The notes beneath the pieces were generated by a model. The model saw only the letters and a program-made list of their open reading frames with translations. It was not told where the DNA came from and did not search any database. Shown one piece after another: positions 1,005 to 11,932 of a DNA stretch of 64,000 bases (position 1 is the first letter of the stretch; the number at the start of each line of letters is the position of its first letter). The position numbers and the translations under genes were made by a program. The DNA is taken from the NCBI RefSeq assembly GCF_003430825.1, contig NZ_CP024047.1, forward strand, positions 496,001 through 560,000, given 5' to 3'. Source of the DNA: Natrarchaeobaculum sulfurireducens. Lineage in GTDB: Archaea > Halobacteriota > Halobacteria > Halobacteriales > Natrialbaceae.

Positions 1005-1742
1005 ATGTCGCTCATCACCGAGGTCCGATTCGCGCACGAAGACGGCGTACTCGCCGACACGCTAACAGCGCTGCCCGACCTCTCGGTCGACATCGTTCGG
1101 GAAGCGAGCACGGCTCCCGACAAGGGTGTCTACTTCTTCCGGTTCGACCACGCCCACCCCGAAGAGGTCCGGCCGCTCCTCGAGTCAGACCACACGGTCA
1201 GTGTAGCCGAACGGGTGCCGGCGGTCGACGACCAGCATCTCTGGAAGATCGCTCTCACGTCCGAGACGAAGCTCCTCGCGCCAGCCGTTACGGTTCGTGG
1301 CGGAGTCGTCCTCGACGCCCGAAGCGCATTGACGAACACCGAGCCGCGTGGCTGGCGTGAACGCTGGTTCTTCCCGGACGACGACGGCATCCACGAGATC
1401 TGGAACCACGCTCGAGCAGCGGACTTCGAGTTCGAAGTGCTCGATCTTTCCCGGCAGCTCCAGCCCGACGTCCCACACGTCGAGGTAAATCCGGTCACCG
1501 ACGAGCAACACCGGGCCCTGTTGACGGCGTACGAACTGGGCTACTTCGAGGAGCCACGCAAGACCTCACTCGAGGAACTCGCAGCAGCGCTCGATCTGTC
1601 GCCTTCTGCGGTCAACGGACGGCTCAGACGCGGCCTGAAGTCGCTGATCGGTGCGGCGTTGACCGTCGACGTTGAGGACGAGGTGGGGAGGACAGATGGC
1701 GAGCCACACGCACGAATCGAGTCGTCTCACTCCCGATGGTAA
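1005..1742 (+). CDS. Bat-like (HTH_10 family) transcriptional regulator
   Basis: This 245-residue protein has the haloarchaeal bacterio-opsin-activator-like layout. The N-terminal ligand-type domain (about residues 1-150) carries the motif GVYFFRF and a DHTV segment. The C-terminal HTH_10 domain (about 165-225) carries the family pattern LLTAYELGYFEEPRKTS followed by SAVNGRLRRG. No PAS or GAF domain is attached. It overlaps the next gene by 7 nt (ATGGTAA), so the two are co-transcribed. The partner is clearly a paralogue, which suggests tandem duplication. The target genes are unknown. Confidence 0.85.
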   Translation: MSLITEVRFAHEDGVLADTLTALPDLSVDIVREASTAPDKGVYFFRFDHAHPEEVRPLLESDHTVSVAERVPAVDDQHLWKIALTSETKLLAPAVTVRGGVVLDARSALTNTEPRGWRERWFFPDDDGIHEIWNHARAADFEFEVLDLSRQLQPDVPHVEVNPVTDEQHRALLTAYELGYFEEPRKTSLEELAAALDLSPSAVNGRLRRGLKSLIGAALTVDVEDEVGRTDGEPHARIESSHSRW

Positions 1743-2386
1743 CCGCCCGAATCTACGTCGAACACCCAGATCTCGCCCTCTCCTACACCATTCGATCGCT
1801 CTCCGACGCAGCGATCGCCGTGGTCTCCGACGTCGGAACCGACCCACACCACAGCGTCTACTTCTTCCGGATCGAAGCCCCCGACTTCGACGCGGTGGCG
1901 TCGACGCTTCGAGCGGACCACACCGTCGACGAGTTCGCCACCGTCGTCGAGATGGCCGGCCACCGGACCTACCGGATCGAGTACAGCGACGCCGCGAAAC
2001 TCATCACGCCGGAGATCACCGACCGCGGCGGGCTCACGCTCGAGTCGACAAGCTATCTGAACGGCTGGCTGTTGCAGTTACAACTCGAGGACCACGACGC
2101 GCTCTATGAGATCGCGACGTACGCCGAACAGGAAGGGATCAAACTCGAAGTCCTCGAACTCACACAACAACCCACGCTCGACGATCACTCCGAGTTCGGG
2201 TTGACGGCGTCCCAGACGGAGGCGCTGGTTGCGGCGTACAAACACGGGCTGTACGACGAGCCCCGCCAGACGTCGATCGAGGAACTGTCGGAAACCCTCG
2301 ACCTCTCGAGAACGGCGGTTAGCGGACGGCTCAGACGTGGCGCGGCCACGCTCGTCGAGGAGTATCTCGTCGAGGACGACGAGTGA
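1736..2386 (+). CDS. Bat-like (HTH_10 family) transcriptional regulator, second of tandem pair
   Basis: This 216-residue protein has the same architecture as its upstream neighbour. The N-terminal domain contains SVYFFRIEAPDFDA and ADHTVDEFA. The C-terminal HTH_10 domain contains ALVAAYKHGLYDEPRQTS and TAVSGRLRRGAATLV. The start codon lies inside the upstream gene (7-nt overlap), so translation is probably coupled. The two proteins may act on related promoters or form heteromers; that is inference. Confidence 0.85.
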   Translation: MVTARIYVEHPDLALSYTIRSLSDAAIAVVSDVGTDPHHSVYFFRIEAPDFDAVASTLRADHTVDEFATVVEMAGHRTYRIEYSDAAKLITPEITDRGGLTLESTSYLNGWLLQLQLEDHDALYEIATYAEQEGIKLEVLELTQQPTLDDHSEFGLTASQTEALVAAYKHGLYDEPRQTSIEELSETLDLSRTAVSGRLRRGAATLVEEYLVEDDE

Positions 2387-2429
2387 GCCCGATCTCAGCA
2401 TGCGACTGCCTGCGATCTCGAGCGGCTAC

Positions 2430-2436
2430 ACTTAAC
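2430..2436 (+). promoter_or_regulatory. TATA box deciding the alcohol dehydrogenase start
   Basis: ACTTAAC is centred 27 bp before the ATG at 2460, the spacing expected for a leaderless haloarchaeal mRNA. It is only about 12 bp from the upstream in-frame ATG at 2445, which argues against that start. Confidence 0.5.
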
Positions 2437-2459
2437 ACGACCCCATGCCACCGACGGGT

Positions 2460-3554
2460 ATGCGCGCTGCAGTCCTCGAGGCGTACGGTGAACCGCTGTC
2501 GATCGAGACCGTCGAACCTCCCGAGCCAGCGTCACACGGGGTCGTCGTCGACGTCGAGGCGTGTGGCATCTGCCGGAGCGACTGGCACGCCTGGCAGGGC
2601 CACGGCGAGTGGGCGGACGACCAGGTATCGCTCGGACAGGTCCTCGGACACGAACCGGCCGGCCGGATCTCGCGAGTCGGCGAGCAGGTCGGGGCGCTCG
2701 AGCCGGGCGACCGCGTCGCGGTTCCGTTCAACCTGGGTGATGGCTCGTGTCCGCAGTGTCGAACCGGACACGGGAACGTCTGTCTCGACGGCTACGCCCT
2801 CGGGTTCGAGGCCGCGGTTCCGGGAGCGTTTGCCGAGCAGGTTCACGTTCCCCACGCCGAGTTCAACCTCACGCGACTGCCCGACGGCGTCTCCGCGACG
2901 GAGGCGGCTGCACTCGGCTGCCGGTACGTGACGGCCTTTCACGCACTGGCCCACCGCGCCGACGTCGATGGCGGCGACTGGGTCGCCGTCCACGGCTGTG
3001 GCGGCCTCGGCCTCGCGGCCGTCCAGATCGCGACCGCACTCGGTGCCCGTGTCGTCGCCGTCGACGTTCGGGATGCACCGCTCGCGTTGGCCACCGACCT
3101 CGGCGCCGAGGCGACCGTCGACGCTTCGACCGTCGACGACGTGCCCGCGGAGATCCGGGCCATCGCTGATGATGGGCTGGCCGGTACCCAGCGTGCCGGC
3201 GGTAGTGGCGCACACGTCTCCGTCGACGCTCTCGGTCGCGCGGAGACGTGTCGCAACAGTATCGATTGCCTGCGTCCCCGTGGCACCCACGTTCAGGTCG
3301 GGTTGACCACCGACGCCGAGCGCGGTGAAATCTCGCTCCCGATCGACGAGGTGACACGGTGGGACGTCTCCGTCCTCGGCTCCCGCGGCATGCCGCCCTC
3401 GCAGTACGACGAACTACTCCGAATGATCGAGGCGAGACGGCTCGCTCCCGATCGGCTCGTCACCCGCGAGGCCACACTCGAGGAAGTCTCCGACCGGCTC
3501 GCTGCGATGACCGACTACGAGACCCACGGGCTCGAGGTCGTTACCTCGTTCTGA
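2460..3554 (+). CDS. Zinc-dependent alcohol dehydrogenase (MDR superfamily)
   Basis: This 364-residue medium-chain dehydrogenase has the GroES-like N-terminal domain with catalytic zinc ligands C38 (ACGICRSDWH) and H64-E65 (LGHEPAG). A partial structural-zinc loop has Cys at 97, 100 and 108; the usual Cys at 103 is Gly, so this site may be weak. The Rossmann domain has VHGCGGLGLAAVQIA at about 180. It probably oxidises an alcohol or polyol with NAD(P); the substrate cannot be read. The start at 2460 is preferred over 2445 from TATA spacing and family length. Confidence 0.85.
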   Translation: MRAAVLEAYGEPLSIETVEPPEPASHGVVVDVEACGICRSDWHAWQGHGEWADDQVSLGQVLGHEPAGRISRVGEQVGALEPGDRVAVPFNLGDGSCPQCRTGHGNVCLDGYALGFEAAVPGAFAEQVHVPHAEFNLTRLPDGVSATEAAALGCRYVTAFHALAHRADVDGGDWVAVHGCGGLGLAAVQIATALGARVVAVDVRDAPLALATDLGAEATVDASTVDDVPAEIRAIADDGLAGTQRAGGSGAHVSVDALGRAETCRNSIDCLRPRGTHVQVGLTTDAERGEISLPIDEVTRWDVSVLGSRGMPPSQYDELLRMIEARRLAPDRLVTREATLEEVSDRLAAMTDYETHGLEVVTSF

Positions 3555-3642
3555 TTGACCTCACTCCCAGCAGGCGGGAACGGCACTTTCGGGACCGAAA
3601 ATGGATCTCTGGTGGGTAAATCGGCTGTTTTGGCCGGTGTTC

Positions 3643-3650
3643 TTATATAT
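3643..3650 (+). promoter_or_regulatory. TATA box of the histidine kinase gene
   Basis: TTATATAT lies about 50 bp before the ATG at 3696 and inside the upstream-extended reading frame. That frame therefore cannot be translated from a transcript made here, and this favours the 3696 start with a leader of roughly 22 nt. Confidence 0.6.
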
Positions 3651-3695
3651 GGGGGTGTGATCTTCCACCAACCGAGGGATACCAGTGAACGAGGA

Positions 3696-5183
3696 ATGGA
3701 GACGATGACGCCGTTCGACACCGCCGCGCGACCGGACCCGGACGCCCTGCTGGCCCAGCTCGAGGACGCCGTCGTCGTTCTCGACGACGCGGGTCGAATC
3801 TCGTATGCGAGCCCACCGGCAGGACGGTTCCTCGGGGCCCCGTCGGAGGCGCTCGTGGGCGTTCGAGCGTTCGAGTACGTCGACCCGCGGGATCGAGCTG
3901 CGGTTCTCGATGCGTTCGAGGAACTCGTAACCGACCCGGCGACGTCGTCTCGTCGGACGGAGTTTCGACTCCTCGGTGAGGGCACTTCCGTCTGGCTCGA
4001 GGCGGTTACCGTCGATGCGACGGCGAGCGACGTCGGCGGCTACGTGGCAACGCTTCGCGACGTGACCGAACACCGGGTCAGAGAACGCGATCTCGAGCGC
4101 CTCCACGACTCGACGAACCACCTGTACGCCGCCGAATCCGTCGAGGAGTCGTACCGAATCGCGATCGACGCAGCGGTCTCGATCCTCGGATTCGACTGGT
4201 GTACCCTGGCGACACCGGCCGACGACGGTGAGACGTTCGAAATCGCTGCGATCTCAGAACACGCCCCGCTCGAGGTTGGTGACCGTCCGTTCGGCCTCGA
4301 CGAGGGGGTCGCCGGCCACGTCTATCAGACCGGAACGGCCTCGGTCGTCGACGACGCCCGGGGGTCGAGTCGGGGGAAGCCGGTCGATCCAGCGATCAGA
4401 TCGGCGCTCACCGTCCCCGTCGGCGACTGGGGCGTCTTCCAGGCCGTCACGACGACGCGGTCGGCGTTCGACGACCGCGACCGAAATCGCGCACAGCTAC
4501 TCGTTACGGCCATGGTCACGGCGATCGACCGGATCGAACGACGGCGCGACCTCGAGCGCCAGAACGAGCGCCTCGATCAGTTCGTTCGGTACGTCTCACA
4601 CGACCTCCGGACGCCCTTGACGACGGCAGCTGGCTATCTGGAGCTGATGGTGGACGATATCGACGGGTCTCCAGCCGAGATCGCCCACGTCCGAGACGCC
4701 CATGAGCAGATGGAGGCGATGATCGACCAGCTGTCGACGTGGGCCCGCGGCGACGACCTCGCCAGGGATCGAACCGCAATTTCGGTTGCGAGCGTCGCCG
4801 GCCACACCTGGTCGTCGGTCGCACCCGAGTCGGCATCGCTTTCGATCGAGATGACGCGGCTGCTCGAGGCCGATCGAACCTGTTTCCGACAACTCGTCGA
4901 GAACCTCCTGCGGAATGCGGTCACGCACGTCGGTGACGACGTTTCAGTCCGCGTCGAAGAACTCGAGGGGGGCTTCGCGATCGAAGACGACGGTCCGGGG
5001 ATTCCGCCGGACGCGCGCGACGACGTCTTCGAACCGGGCCACACGTGTTCCGAAGCCGGCACCGGACTCGGGCTCGCAATCGTCGCCGAAATCGTCTCGG
5101 CTCACGGCTGGGAAATTGCGGTAACCGAGGGGAGTGCTGGCGGCGCGCGATTCGAGATTACTGGCGTCGATTTCGCGGACTGA
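3696..5183 (+). CDS. Sensor histidine kinase, PAS-GAF-HisKA-HATPase
   Basis: This soluble kinase of 495 residues has no membrane segment. The order is PAS (about 15-130), GAF (about 140-280), a HisKA helix pair with the phospho-accepting His302 in YVSHDLRTPL, and a HATPase_c domain with N box LVENLLRNAVTH and G boxes EDDGPGIPPDA and GTGLGLAIVAEIV. It should autophosphorylate in response to a cytoplasmic or redox/light signal bound by PAS or GAF. No receiver domain or response regulator lies next to it, so its partner is elsewhere. Confidence 0.88.
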   Translation: METMTPFDTAARPDPDALLAQLEDAVVVLDDAGRISYASPPAGRFLGAPSEALVGVRAFEYVDPRDRAAVLDAFEELVTDPATSSRRTEFRLLGEGTSVWLEAVTVDATASDVGGYVATLRDVTEHRVRERDLERLHDSTNHLYAAESVEESYRIAIDAAVSILGFDWCTLATPADDGETFEIAAISEHAPLEVGDRPFGLDEGVAGHVYQTGTASVVDDARGSSRGKPVDPAIRSALTVPVGDWGVFQAVTTTRSAFDDRDRNRAQLLVTAMVTAIDRIERRRDLERQNERLDQFVRYVSHDLRTPLTTAAGYLELMVDDIDGSPAEIAHVRDAHEQMEAMIDQLSTWARGDDLARDRTAISVASVAGHTWSSVAPESASLSIEMTRLLEADRTCFRQLVENLLRNAVTHVGDDVSVRVEELEGGFAIEDDGPGIPPDARDDVFEPGHTCSEAGTGLGLAIVAEIVSAHGWEIAVTEGSAGGARFEITGVDFAD

Positions 5184-8483: not shown

Positions 8484-9224
8484 TCAGTCCGCTGGGCTGG
8501 CCGGACCGGGGTCGGTCGCGTCGGTCGTTTCGACCGGATCGACCGGTTCCGAGCTAAACGCGAACCGTTCGTTCCAGACGAAGTAGACGTACGGCGTCTT
8601 CGCGACGACGTCGATGTACGCGATAATCATCGCAGTGCCGACGACGGAGACGGCTCCGACTCCAGCCGGGCTTGCAAGCCAGATGAGTGGATAGGCAAGC
8701 CACAGCAGGCCAACGTGGTTCTGGAGCACTTTGAACAGCCGGTATCGCTCGGGATACTGGGAGACGTATCGTGGAAAGATCAGATACAGAATCGCCAGCA
8801 AAGAGACGTGGAATATCGCGGAGACACCGAACCCGATCCAAGTCGCGATCCCGGTCAGTAGCGTCGCTGCAAAGCCGATTGCGATCATCATCGCATCGGC
8901 GACGGCAACGGCGATGATCCACTTTCGGGGCGCGCCAGCGACGTAGCCAACGTACGCCACCAGTATCGGCGTCGTCACCAACCAGTCGATGTACCGGAAG
9001 AGATAGACGCTGTTATCGCCGACTTCGACGACGCCGATCTCGAGTGTCATAAACAGGTACGAGAGACCTGCGAACGCCGGGATGACCAGCAGCCACAGGA
9101 ACCCTCCGCGGTCGTTATCGACGGCGTCGTCCGTCAACAAGCGGATACTAATGACAACCCCTATGAGCAGACCAACGGTCGCGATTGCATAGGAGACGGT
9201 GATGGCACTCGCTCCGTCGATCAT
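8484..9224 (-). CDS. sopI: Sensory rhodopsin I (retinal phototaxis receptor)
   Basis: This is a seven-helix retinal protein of 246 residues. The Schiff-base lysine is K209 with counterion-region D205 ([13 protein letters not shown]). Helix C has R77 and D80 ([13 protein letters not shown]). The proton-donor position of pumps is Y91, so it should not pump. From memory of Halobacterium SRI the spacing matches without gaps: D76, H166 and K205 there correspond to D80, H170 (LQNHVGLLW) and K209 here, and H166 is a hallmark of SRI. Its ATG overlaps the transducer stop (ATGA) and has a strong Shine-Dalgarno, so it is made after the transducer from one mRNA. Confidence 0.95.
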
Positions 9225-10804
9225 CGGCGCTCACCTCCATCGGAACGAACCGGCGGGTGTCCCGCACCGACCGGCTGAACCTCGCCGAGATCGAACCGCG
9301 TCAACTCCCCGGTAAGACTGACAGCATTGCGCTGGAACTCCTCGAGTGTGTCGTTGATCTCCTCGAAGACGTCCCGTTGTTCTTCGACCGACCGTGCGAC
9401 GTCCTCGGCGGTCGTCTCGGCGTCGCGGCTCAACGCCGCCACGCCTTCGCTTGCGGTTGCGATCTCCTGGACGGTACGTGCCTGCCCGGAGGTTGCATCA
9501 CTGATCTCGGTTATGCCGTGGTCGATCTCGGTGACCGAGTCACTGATCATCTGGACGTACTCGAGTGCGTCCTCGACGGTATCGGTTCCGCGAACGACAC
9601 GGTTTAGCGTCTCTTCGACCGAGTCCGCAGCTTCAGTGGTTTCGGTGCGAACCTCCTCGATCATGTCCGAGATTTCGTTCGCGCGTTCGCGCGTCTCCTC
9701 TGCGAGGCCTTTGACTTCGTTAGCGACGACCGCGAACCCGTCACCGCCACCACCGGCGTTGGCGGCCTCGATCGAGGCATTGAGCGCCAGCAGGTTCGTC
9801 TGATCGGCGATGTCGTTGATCACCTCGATGATTTCGGTGATCTCTTCGGTGCTCTCGGCTAACGACTCGATCTGTTCCACTGTCGCTGCGGTTTCTTCCT
9901 CGATGGCGTTCATCTCCTCGATGGCGTCGGTCGCCGCCGTTCGGGTTCGCGTTGCGGCGGCGGTAGCGTCATCACTGGTCGAAGAGAGCTTCTCGGTCGT
10001 TGCAGCGATCTCCTCGGCAACGGCCGACATCTCGTCGATATCGTCAGTGACCTCCTCGAGTTGCTTTCGCTGTTCGCGGGTGTCGGCCGTAATCTCGCCG
10101 ACGGTATCGGCGGTCCGTGTGACCGCCTGTTCGACCGTGTCACTCATCTCCGCGAGCGCCTCGGTGTCGCGCTGGACGGCGCTTGCGAAGGCATCGACGG
10201 TCGCCAGTGCTTCGGCGAGATCGTCGATCGTCGCGTTGAACTCCCGGCCGATCGTCTCCATCGGCTCGTGGGTGGTGTCCACCTCGACCCGTGCGGAGAG
10301 GTCTCCCGACGCGGCTCGTTGCATCGTCTCGGCGTACGATTCGGCGGTCTCCCGATAGGCTTCGGCCAGCGAGGTCGCTTCGCGTTCGGCTTCTTCGGCT
10401 TCCTCGCGGGCCTGCTCGGCTTCGATGCGCGCACGATCTGCCTCGACACGCGCCTCGTCGGCTTCCTTACGAGCCGCTTCGGCCTCCTCGAGCTGTTTGG
10501 CCAATGACTGTCGCATCCGGTCGATCGAGTTATACAGACGACCAAACTCGTCCGTGCGAGTCGAGTCGATGCGTTCGTCGAGCGCACCATCGGCGATTCG
10601 ATTGGTCCGTCGGTCCAACTCGACGACCGATGCGATCGTATTCGTTCCCGTTACCGACCCGAGCGCGAGCAACGCCGCCCAGGCCATCATGATGGTCGCC
10701 GTTGCACTTCCTGTAACAACTCCAACAGCAGTGACCATCGTCCCAGTAACGGTGTACCCACCAACTAATTTCCAGCCGTACGACCCCTGTATCCGTCCGA
10801 TCAT
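9221..10804 (-). CDS. htrI: Sensory rhodopsin I transducer (methyl-accepting phototaxis protein)
   Basis: Starting at ATG 10804 this is 527 residues, close to the roughly 536 of Halobacterium HtrI. Two N-terminal membrane helices ([14 protein letters not shown] onward and [15 protein letters not shown]) are joined by a very short loop, with no extracellular ligand domain, as in HtrI rather than HtrII. Two HAMP segments ([33 protein letters not shown]) and a long Glu/Ala coiled coil follow. The signalling hairpin is [18 protein letters not shown]. It passes the SRI signal to CheA/CheW. The longer upstream frame to 10915 lacks HtrI-like sequence and is not used. Confidence 0.93.
9231..9238 (-). 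promoter_or_regulatory. Shine-Dalgarno of sopI
   Basis: On the minus strand GGAGGTGA stands 6 nt before the rhodopsin ATG, inside the end of the transducer gene. This is unusually strong for a haloarchaeal gene. It explains internal initiation on the polycistronic transcript and may help set the receptor to transducer ratio. Confidence 0.75.
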
Positions 10805-11031
10805 GCTTTCAACTCGGACAGAGCATACGTATTGAATCTCCCCAACTAGTAAGGCTGCGCATATGTTCTCTCTAATCTGACTTGAAATAACGTATCGTCC
10901 TCTACTGAACCGCATTCTGCCCTCGACGGTCGGGCATCGACCGGCGATAAAGTCGTCTACCGGTGTTGGTATCGTCCCGCACGGCTCATCGTGCCGATAG
11001 GACCACGGTCACGCCGCCCCTCGCTCGAAGC

Positions 11032-11373
11032 ATGGACGGGACTATCCCGGTACGTGTAATCCAGGGCGACGACGAAACGGTCATCGACGTCGAAGCCGGT
11101 AGGAACCTTCGGGCGGCGTTGCTCGAGCGCGAATTCCCAGTCTACGGAACGGTCGCGCGCTATGCCAATTGCGGAGGTCGTGGGCTCTGTGCCACCTGTA
11201 CCGTCGAGGTCGACCCCGAGCCGGAGCCGGTCCACTGGCACGACGCCGCAGCACTCCGGTTCGGCTACCCCCGACTCTCCTGTTGTCTCGAGGTCGAAGC
11301 GCCGATGACGGTCGGACTGCTCGAGAAACACCTCTGGGGACAGCTTCTCCCCCGCCAACGACAGCAAGAGTGA
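11032..11373 (+). CDS. 2Fe-2S ferredoxin-like protein
   Basis: This plant-type 2Fe-2S domain protein has 113 residues. Cluster ligands are visible as C47, C53 and C56 (NCGGRGLCATC) and a fourth Cys at 84 or 85 (RLSCC). The beta-grasp N terminus reads IPVRVIQGDDETVIDVEAG. It is shorter than the main haloarchaeal ferredoxin and lacks that protein's inserted acidic domain, so it is probably a specialised electron carrier. The start at 11032 was chosen because upstream sequence is not ferredoxin-like. It is divergent from htrI. Confidence 0.8.
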   Translation: MDGTIPVRVIQGDDETVIDVEAGRNLRAALLEREFPVYGTVARYANCGGRGLCATCTVEVDPEPEPVHWHDAAALRFGYPRLSCCLEVEAPMTVGLLEKHLWGQLLPRQRQQE

Positions 11374-11426
11374 CGTCGTTAGTGGGACGGGTGGCTCGTC
11401 CCCCGTCGAACGGCCACGACCGATAC

Positions 11427-11435
11427 GCCCTTACG
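11427..11435 (+). promoter_or_regulatory. TATA-like element of the 11459 gene
   Basis: GCCCTTACG-like sequence is centred about 27 bp before the ATG at 11459, consistent with a leaderless transcript and with that start rather than the upstream in-frame codon at 11438. Confidence 0.35.
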
Positions 11436-11458
11436 GGGTGTGCCCTAGCCTCCGTGTA

Positions 11459-11932
11459 ATGTTCAGCGAACTCACGGCCGTCCCGGCGGCGCTCCGGTTA
11501 CCAGTGGGGTTCGTCGCCGCCATCCCCGCGGTCGTTGTGATGGACCGAGTCATGAGTCGACTCCGCGACGGGACGACCCCTCCATCGGTTGCCGCGAGCG
11601 TACTGACGGAGACGCCCATCGATCGGTCCCCGGACCGTCTCGCGTCGGTCGTCCACTATCTCGCGGCGCTCGGAACCGGTGTGTTGTTCATTTACGGGTC
11701 GTTGCTCGTCGAGTGGGTTCTCGGTGGCGCGTCAGTGGGTTCCCTCGCAGCGACGACCTTCGGCCTGTACGTCCTCATGGTCGGCTTCTTCGTGGTTGTC
11801 CCGCTCCCGCGTGCTACCGGCCTTGGGCGCACCCGACGACGCGTCGTCGCCCGGAGTTGGGCGGTCGCCGCCGCGACCTACCTGCTCGTGTTGGTCCCCA
11901 TTTCGACGGCGCTTTCGCTCGGATTGGCGTAG
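11459..11932 (+). CDS. Multi-pass membrane protein, haloarchaeal
   Basis: The 157-residue protein has about four hydrophobic segments: near the N terminus (PVGFVAAIPAVVVMD), in the middle (LAALGTGVLFIYGSLLVEWVL and FGLYVLMVGFFVVVPLP) and at the C terminus (AATYLLVLVPISTALSLGLA). I do not recognise a family or active-site motif. It is flanked by the ferredoxin and a winged-helix regulator; no functional link can be shown. Confidence 0.7.
   Translation: MFSELTAVPAALRLPVGFVAAIPAVVVMDRVMSRLRDGTTPPSVAASVLTETPIDRSPDRLASVVHYLAALGTGVLFIYGSLLVEWVLGGASVGSLAATTFGLYVLMVGFFVVVPLPRATGLGRTRRRVVARSWAVAAATYLLVLVPISTALSLGLA

Follow-up and report, generated by a model that had tools for sequence, protein, structure and literature searches.

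The two overlapping reverse-strand genes at positions 8484-10804 of the window (the whole 64,000-nucleotide stretch of DNA that was analysed) encode a sensory rhodopsin I (SRI) and its phototaxis transducer HtrI. They are best read as a complete, probably functional operon of a hitherto uncharacterised SRI lineage, with a receptor-transducer contact resembling that of SRII-HtrII, which reached this genome by lateral acquisition; from the sequence comparisons described below, we place the probability of this reading as a whole at roughly 0.8.

Gene structure and membership of the SRI family

Both open reading frames are full-length and lie exactly where a complete SRI/HtrI operon had been proposed in the preliminary description. 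The htrI gene is directly upstream of sopI, an order that is kept in the relatives, and the two genes overlap in the four letters ATGA, which makes translational coupling likely. The features of the operon, including the codons of the central photochemical residues, are as follows (residues of the Halobacterium protein are marked Hs).

8484..9224, minus strand: sopI, sensory rhodopsin I, 246 aa, seven transmembrane helices (PF01036, E=1.6e-35; best PDB match 9wxr, E=1.1e-60)
9221..10804, minus strand: htrI, 527-aa phototaxis transducer lacking an ectodomain (best PDB match again 9wxr, E=6.5e-26 over aa 3-122, the membrane and HAMP part)
9221..9224, minus strand: ATGA, shared by the stop of htrI and the start of sopI, read directly from the sequence
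10637..10771, minus strand: HtrI TM1-TM2, aa 12-56, hydrophobic, two helices joined by a short turn only (hydropathy; 9wxr alignment)
10502..10627, minus strand: HtrI HAMP domain, aa 60-101 (PF00672, E=2.5e-12)
9431..9934, minus strand: HtrI MCP signalling domain, aa 291-458, with a hairpin tip of 14 residues (MCPsignal, PF00015, E=4.2e-47)
8985..8987, minus strand: SRI Asp80 codon, Schiff-base counterion (HsSRI D76; alignment and residue table)
8715..8717, minus strand: SRI His170 codon (HsSRI H166; alignment and residue table)
8598..8600, minus strand: SRI Lys209 codon, retinal Schiff base (HsSRI K205; alignment and residue table)

Hydropathy and the alignment with 9wxr agree on the two-helix, ectodomain-less layout previously attributed to HtrI, and HAMP and MCPsignal domains are present as well; Pfam gave no separate match to a second HAMP domain in this protein. 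A promoter and terminator scan of the locus, by a method ill-suited to archaea, returned nothing.

Residue correspondence was established with the Halobacterium-type SRI and HtrI of locus L134 (genome G064), taken as the reference because its ATG-based numbering reproduces the published residues D76, H166, K205, R215 and F199 of SRI and N53, E56 and R84 of HtrI. The window rhodopsin is identical to this SRI at 113 of 230 positions (49%), with gaps confined to the C-terminal tail and none across the seven helices, and the earlier equation of D80, H170 and K209 with D76, H166 and K205, which had presumed a gap-free alignment, is thereby upheld. The SRI test residues Lys205, Asp76, Asp201 and Arg73 are all matched (K209, D80, D205 and R77, respectively), and N169, H170 and A208 are also in their classical SRI states; in the His166 column, His is found in 30 of 30 classical SRIs, where SRII has Leu, Phe or Ile. 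As a sequence match, the correspondence of the two genes with SRI and HtrI is far beyond chance. At the two colour-tuning columns that were checked, Ser135 and Ala208 are BR/SRI-like, and NpSRII has Gly and Thr. The effect of these columns on colour is known from SRII mutants, and since the SRII states are missing here, green-orange absorption is expected for the window SRI.

Tyr91 and the Ala adjacent to the Schiff base had been singled out as potentially informative for colour and signal tuning, and both were rejected as unusual tuning residues. Tyr91 does occupy the column of the BR proton donor Asp96 (Asp in HmBRI), so that the donor of a light-driven proton pump is missing, but it has no special status, being the equivalent of HsSRI Tyr87 and present in 6 of the 30 classical SRIs and throughout the window subgroup. 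Ala at the position preceding the lysine is invariant across all five SRI subgroups.

In a maximum likelihood tree of 81 rhodopsins, anchored by BR, HR and SRII sequences from solved structures, the window rhodopsin falls inside a 55-row SRI clade (support 100/99), apart from SRII, BR and HR, and a tree forced to unite it with SRII is 147 log-likelihood units worse (p-AU 1.35e-5); the phylogenetic check against these four sets that had been called for thus favours SRI. An SRII, or a pump that merely resembles SRI, might have been suspected from the SRII-like Tyr203 of the receptor and the Asn of the transducer discussed below, but the tree position and AU test rule out such an identity, His170 and Ala208 are SRI states, and Tyr91 stands in the BR donor column, leaving this reading with next to no credence.

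Within the SRI clade, the window sequence belongs to a 7-row subgroup (100/99) separate from the 30-row classical clade, which comprises the Halobacterium- and Haloarcula-type SRIs together with 9wxr; its Tyr203 and Glu219, where classical SRI has Phe199 and Arg215, likewise place it outside the classical subgroup. A separate transducer tree joins the window HtrI to the HtrIs of Halovenus and Halohasta (98 SH-aLRT) and gathers the classical HtrIs in a group of their own (100), and because the same partners appear in both trees, receptor and transducer have travelled together. The pairs of Halovenus carboxidivorans, Halovenus aranensis and Halohasta salina (L006-L008, L072-L075), all uncharacterised, show 65-69% receptor and 55-60% transducer identity to the window pair and have in common with it the TGTN/NGTN and Tyr203/Glu219 signature, although they belong to other families. 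By these comparisons, the window operon is a member of a previously uncharacterised SRI lineage; a literature search, with older subscription papers out of its reach, returned nothing on this lineage or on the conservation of HtrI Glu56.

With the classical SRI-HtrI systems (Halobacterium salinarum; 9wxr fusion) the window pair has in common its operon order and overlapping genes, the equivalents of D76, H166, D201, A204 and K205, and a two-helix transducer that lacks an ectodomain and carries a HAMP domain and an MCP tip. SRM-HtrM of Haloarcula marismortui is a further type of haloarchaeal sensory rhodopsin, in which HtrM, unlike the window transducer, has no MCP signalling domain (PMC6450946). 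What is new in the operon is, on this evidence, a variant within the SRI-HtrI family at the place where sign control was mapped, and not a new type of system.

The receptor-transducer contact

Many of the positions that are fixed differently in the window subgroup and the classical clade cluster on SRI helix G and HtrI TM2, among them four sites of the receptor-transducer contact and its suppressors.

10640..10642, minus strand: HtrI Asn55 codon, equivalent to HsHtrI Glu56 (inverting site) and NpHtrII Asn74; Glu in 29/29 classical, Asn in 5/5 of the window clade
10649..10651, minus strand: HtrI Thr52 codon, equivalent to HsHtrI Asn53 (suppressor site); Asn in 29/29 classical HtrIs
8616..8618, minus strand: SRI Tyr203 codon, equivalent to HsSRI Phe199 and NpSRII Tyr199 (transducer contact); Tyr in 7/7 of the window clade, Phe in 30/30 classical, Tyr in 16/16 SRII
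8568..8570, minus strand: SRI Glu219 codon, equivalent to HsSRI Arg215 (suppressor site), charge reversed; Glu in six and Asp in one of the window clade, Arg in 29/30 classical

The HtrI block 53-56 reads NAAE in all 29 classical transducers, TGTN in four of the five intact window-clade HtrIs and NGTN in the fifth. Relative to the classical pair, the window pair carries Asn for Glu56, Thr for Asn53, Gly for Ala54 and Thr for Ala55 in HtrI, and Tyr for Phe199, Glu for Arg215 and Ile-Ile for T196-Y197 in SRI; HtrI Arg84 is retained, as R83 of the window transducer. The differences at HtrI 53 and 56 and SRI 199 and 215 constitute a real departure that the preliminary description had missed.

In H. 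salinarum, mutation of HtrI Glu56, or of SRI Asn165 or His166, inverts the attractant response, and suppressor sites are found at HtrI Asn53, at Arg84 and at SRI Arg215 (reviewed in PMC3274258). This review assigns Arg84 to SRI; we read it as an HtrI residue because in L134 it is HtrI that has Arg at position 84, the SRI having Leu there. Tyr199 of SRII and Asn74 of HtrII form a contact in the crystal (PMC3274258), and the bond between them switches direction in the active state, along with a rotation of TM2 (PMC5292967). Since window Tyr203 and HtrI Asn55 sit in the Tyr199 and Asn74 columns, the window pair combines SRII-type contact residues with an SRI-type receptor; by homology, these two residues would touch, and the contact probably follows the SRII-HtrII wiring instead of using the classical Phe199 and Glu56. 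The likeness to SRII-HtrII of Natronomonas pharaonis (1gu8, 1h2s) lies in these homologous positions and in the overall mechanism, whereas the window receptor differs in its placement in the SRI clade, in having His170 for Leu and Ala208 for Thr204, and in positions 135 and 208, which are not SRII-like. The replacement of Arg215 by Glu has a possible counterpart at window HtrI position 66, which is Arg in 5/5 of the window clade and Gln in 29/29 classical transducers, making Arg66 a candidate compensating partner of SRI Glu219.

Glu56 is absent from all sampled non-classical SRI transducers, a sample that does not extend to the SRI of Salinibacter, the known bacterial SRI. Outside the classical clade, position 56 is Asn in the window subgroup, Ala in 5/5 of a second subgroup, Ser, Thr or Ala in a third, Ala and Gly in two singletons, and Asn in 7/7 of the subgroup with Gln for His166; its equivalent in SRII-HtrII is mostly Asn. 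On the receptor tree, Glu56 accounts for exactly one change and SRI position 199 for four, the latter tracking Glu56 imperfectly, as Phe is paired with Asn in the Q subgroup and Tyr with Ala in the B subgroup. The covariation of Tyr or Phe at SRI 199 with the absence or presence of Glu at HtrI 56 is consequently suggestive but not demonstrable, since coevolution cannot be tested statistically on one origin of Glu56. These states are explained most simply if Asn or a small residue is the older condition and Glu56, with Asn53, originated a single time in the common ancestor of the classical SRIs. We limit the claim accordingly: across the sampled sequences, the classical contact is a subgroup-specific and not a general property of SRI.

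Signal sign and alternative readings

In the mechanism envisaged, retinal bound to Lys209, with His170 and with Asp80 as counterion, would absorb green-orange light; isomerisation would shift SRI helices F and G against HtrI TM2, and the signal would then be relayed by the HAMP domain to the MCP tip, from there to CheA/CheW and on to the archaellum. Colour, photocycle, complex formation and behaviour of the window pair are predictions from its sequence. The same genome contains an SRII-HtrII pair, a halorhodopsin, ten PF01917 archaellin-family matches, five CheW-domain matches and two Brp/Blh carotene-cleavage genes, one adjoining SRII-HtrII and one near the halorhodopsin gene (L121, C3:462036; L122, C3:571600), and by gene content it supplies what an SRI needs in archaellins, CheW proteins and Brp/Blh enzymes.

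Orange light most likely still acts as an attractant, although our confidence in the sign is modest. This outcome is judged likelier than a repellent response because the receptor retains the equivalents of D76, N165, H166 and D201 and because the change at Glu56 is accompanied by changes at the sign-suppressor positions; on the other hand, replacement of Glu56 inverts the response in H. salinarum, and the attractant sign is therefore unsafe to assume. A naturally sign-inverted SRI would be one in which Asn in place of Glu56 lets the dark equilibrium favour the extracellularly connected Schiff base, turning orange light into a repellent. The role of Glu56 as the inverting site of H. salinarum HtrI (PMC3274258) is in keeping with this, as is the neutral Asn of the window clade, which is also found in the repellent-signalling SRII-HtrII. 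However, two suppressor sites, Asn53 and Arg215, differ as well (Thr and Glu here), the His166 and Asn165 equivalents are retained, and the genome already has an SRII for repellent responses; moreover, the analogy with single-site Glu56 mutants is weak because the background differs at many positions, and we consider inversion unlikely. A broader proposal is held just as tentatively: the window pair may be a natural counterpart of the Glu56 sign-inversion mutants, its contact in (or back to) an SRII-like Tyr-Asn state with a different or switchable sign on the same orange-absorbing receptor, in which case attractant signalling by SRI would have been created by a single innovation, the classical set of Glu56, Asn53 and Arg215.

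Slightly less improbable, but still doubtful, is a classical SRI-HtrI whose contact has drifted neutrally, Glu56 being a lineage-specific residue that is functionally irrelevant outside H. salinarum. Every photochemical residue is conserved, as such a view would expect, and the single occurrence of Glu56 on the receptor tree makes a test by convergence impossible. Yet the invariance of NAAE (29/29) and near-invariance of TGTN (4/5), together with coordinated changes along helix G (HsSRI 196, 197, 199, 203 and 215), look like constraint rather than drift. That the acquired operon is degenerate or not expressed is considerably less probable than either: the insertion is limited to this species within its genus, and a relative at L076 has a truncated htrI beside a recombinase gene, but both window frames are intact and full-length and contain all photochemical and signalling motifs. 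At that relative's locus (genome G051, ~1714-3800, minus strand), the window-clade sopI is itself intact, and with its htrI truncated next to a tyrosine-recombinase-like gene it is left as an orphan receptor.

How attractant and repellent signals are sent by one receptor through one transducer is a long-standing question about SRI, and work on it has relied mostly on mutants of H. salinarum. The lineage described here, with Glu56, Asn53, Phe199 and Arg215 all replaced around an unchanged photochemical core, provides a natural system in which sign control can be tested.

Distribution and genomic surroundings

Within the window family, 1 of 125 genomes (that of the window itself) has SRI-clade genes, compared with 17 of 148 in a second family and 35 of 171 in a third; Halovenus carboxidivorans, Halovenus aranensis and Halohasta salina fall within the second and third families. 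A search of three congeners, two of them represented by incomplete assemblies, found no SRI. Across the order, 41 of 394 sampled genomes have SRI-clade genes and at least 63 of 388 have SRII, a count made with a strict cut-off that misses divergent SRII; SRI is thus the rarer of the two, but the statement that it is much rarer goes too far, as the factor is not established.

The operon forms part of a segment that is absent from a complete congener genome (G129):

8484..11932, no strand: inserted segment with sopI and htrI and with genes for a ferredoxin-like [2Fe-2S] protein and a small membrane protein

In G129, lhr (helicase) and the next HTH gene are ~280 bp apart and the site is empty, and in a further congener (G399) the gap between them is filled by two different genes. 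The single occurrence in the window family, against 17/148 and 35/171 elsewhere, the empty G129 site and the Halovenus and Halohasta sequences as nearest relatives make lateral acquisition into a variable gap the best explanation; the operon would have arrived with or beside the ferredoxin-like gene, in the gap after lhr. Loss of SRI elsewhere in the window family, without transfer, is formally possible. Base composition was rejected as proof of transfer and gives it no independent support, as the GC content (59-62%) and GC3 (73-76%) of the operon are only slightly below those of its neighbours. SRI on plasmids was represented by one Haloarcula plasmid and a distant Deinococcus match only.

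The ferredoxin-like [2Fe-2S] gene (10963-11373, plus strand) is divergent from htrI and has homologues elsewhere in the family (L100, L101). Both it and lhr are absent as neighbours from the Halovenus and Halohasta loci, and no ferredoxin was found beside htrI there. In G129 (L129, 7540-15433), lhr lies near an htrII-sopII operon, from which it is separated by Brp/Blh-like and carotenoid-type genes, whereas in the window genome SRII is ~42 kb away from lhr.

No lysine-bearing proton pump is present among the five opsin-family genes of the window genome. Two of its opsin-family 7TM proteins (L004:1489-2220, C3:2844494; L005:1402-2229, C3:862312) lack the retinal Lys, replaced by Phe and Leu, and the counterion Asp, replaced by Gly. 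The SRI-like subgroup with Gln for His166 (L022, L028, L030, L044, L047, L050 and L093), from one other family, also has Phe for His135 and linked transducers and is apparently uncharacterised. A further SRI-like gene (L021, G237:C3:69191-69907) contains in-frame TGA and TAG codons and is possibly decaying, while its transducer looks intact.
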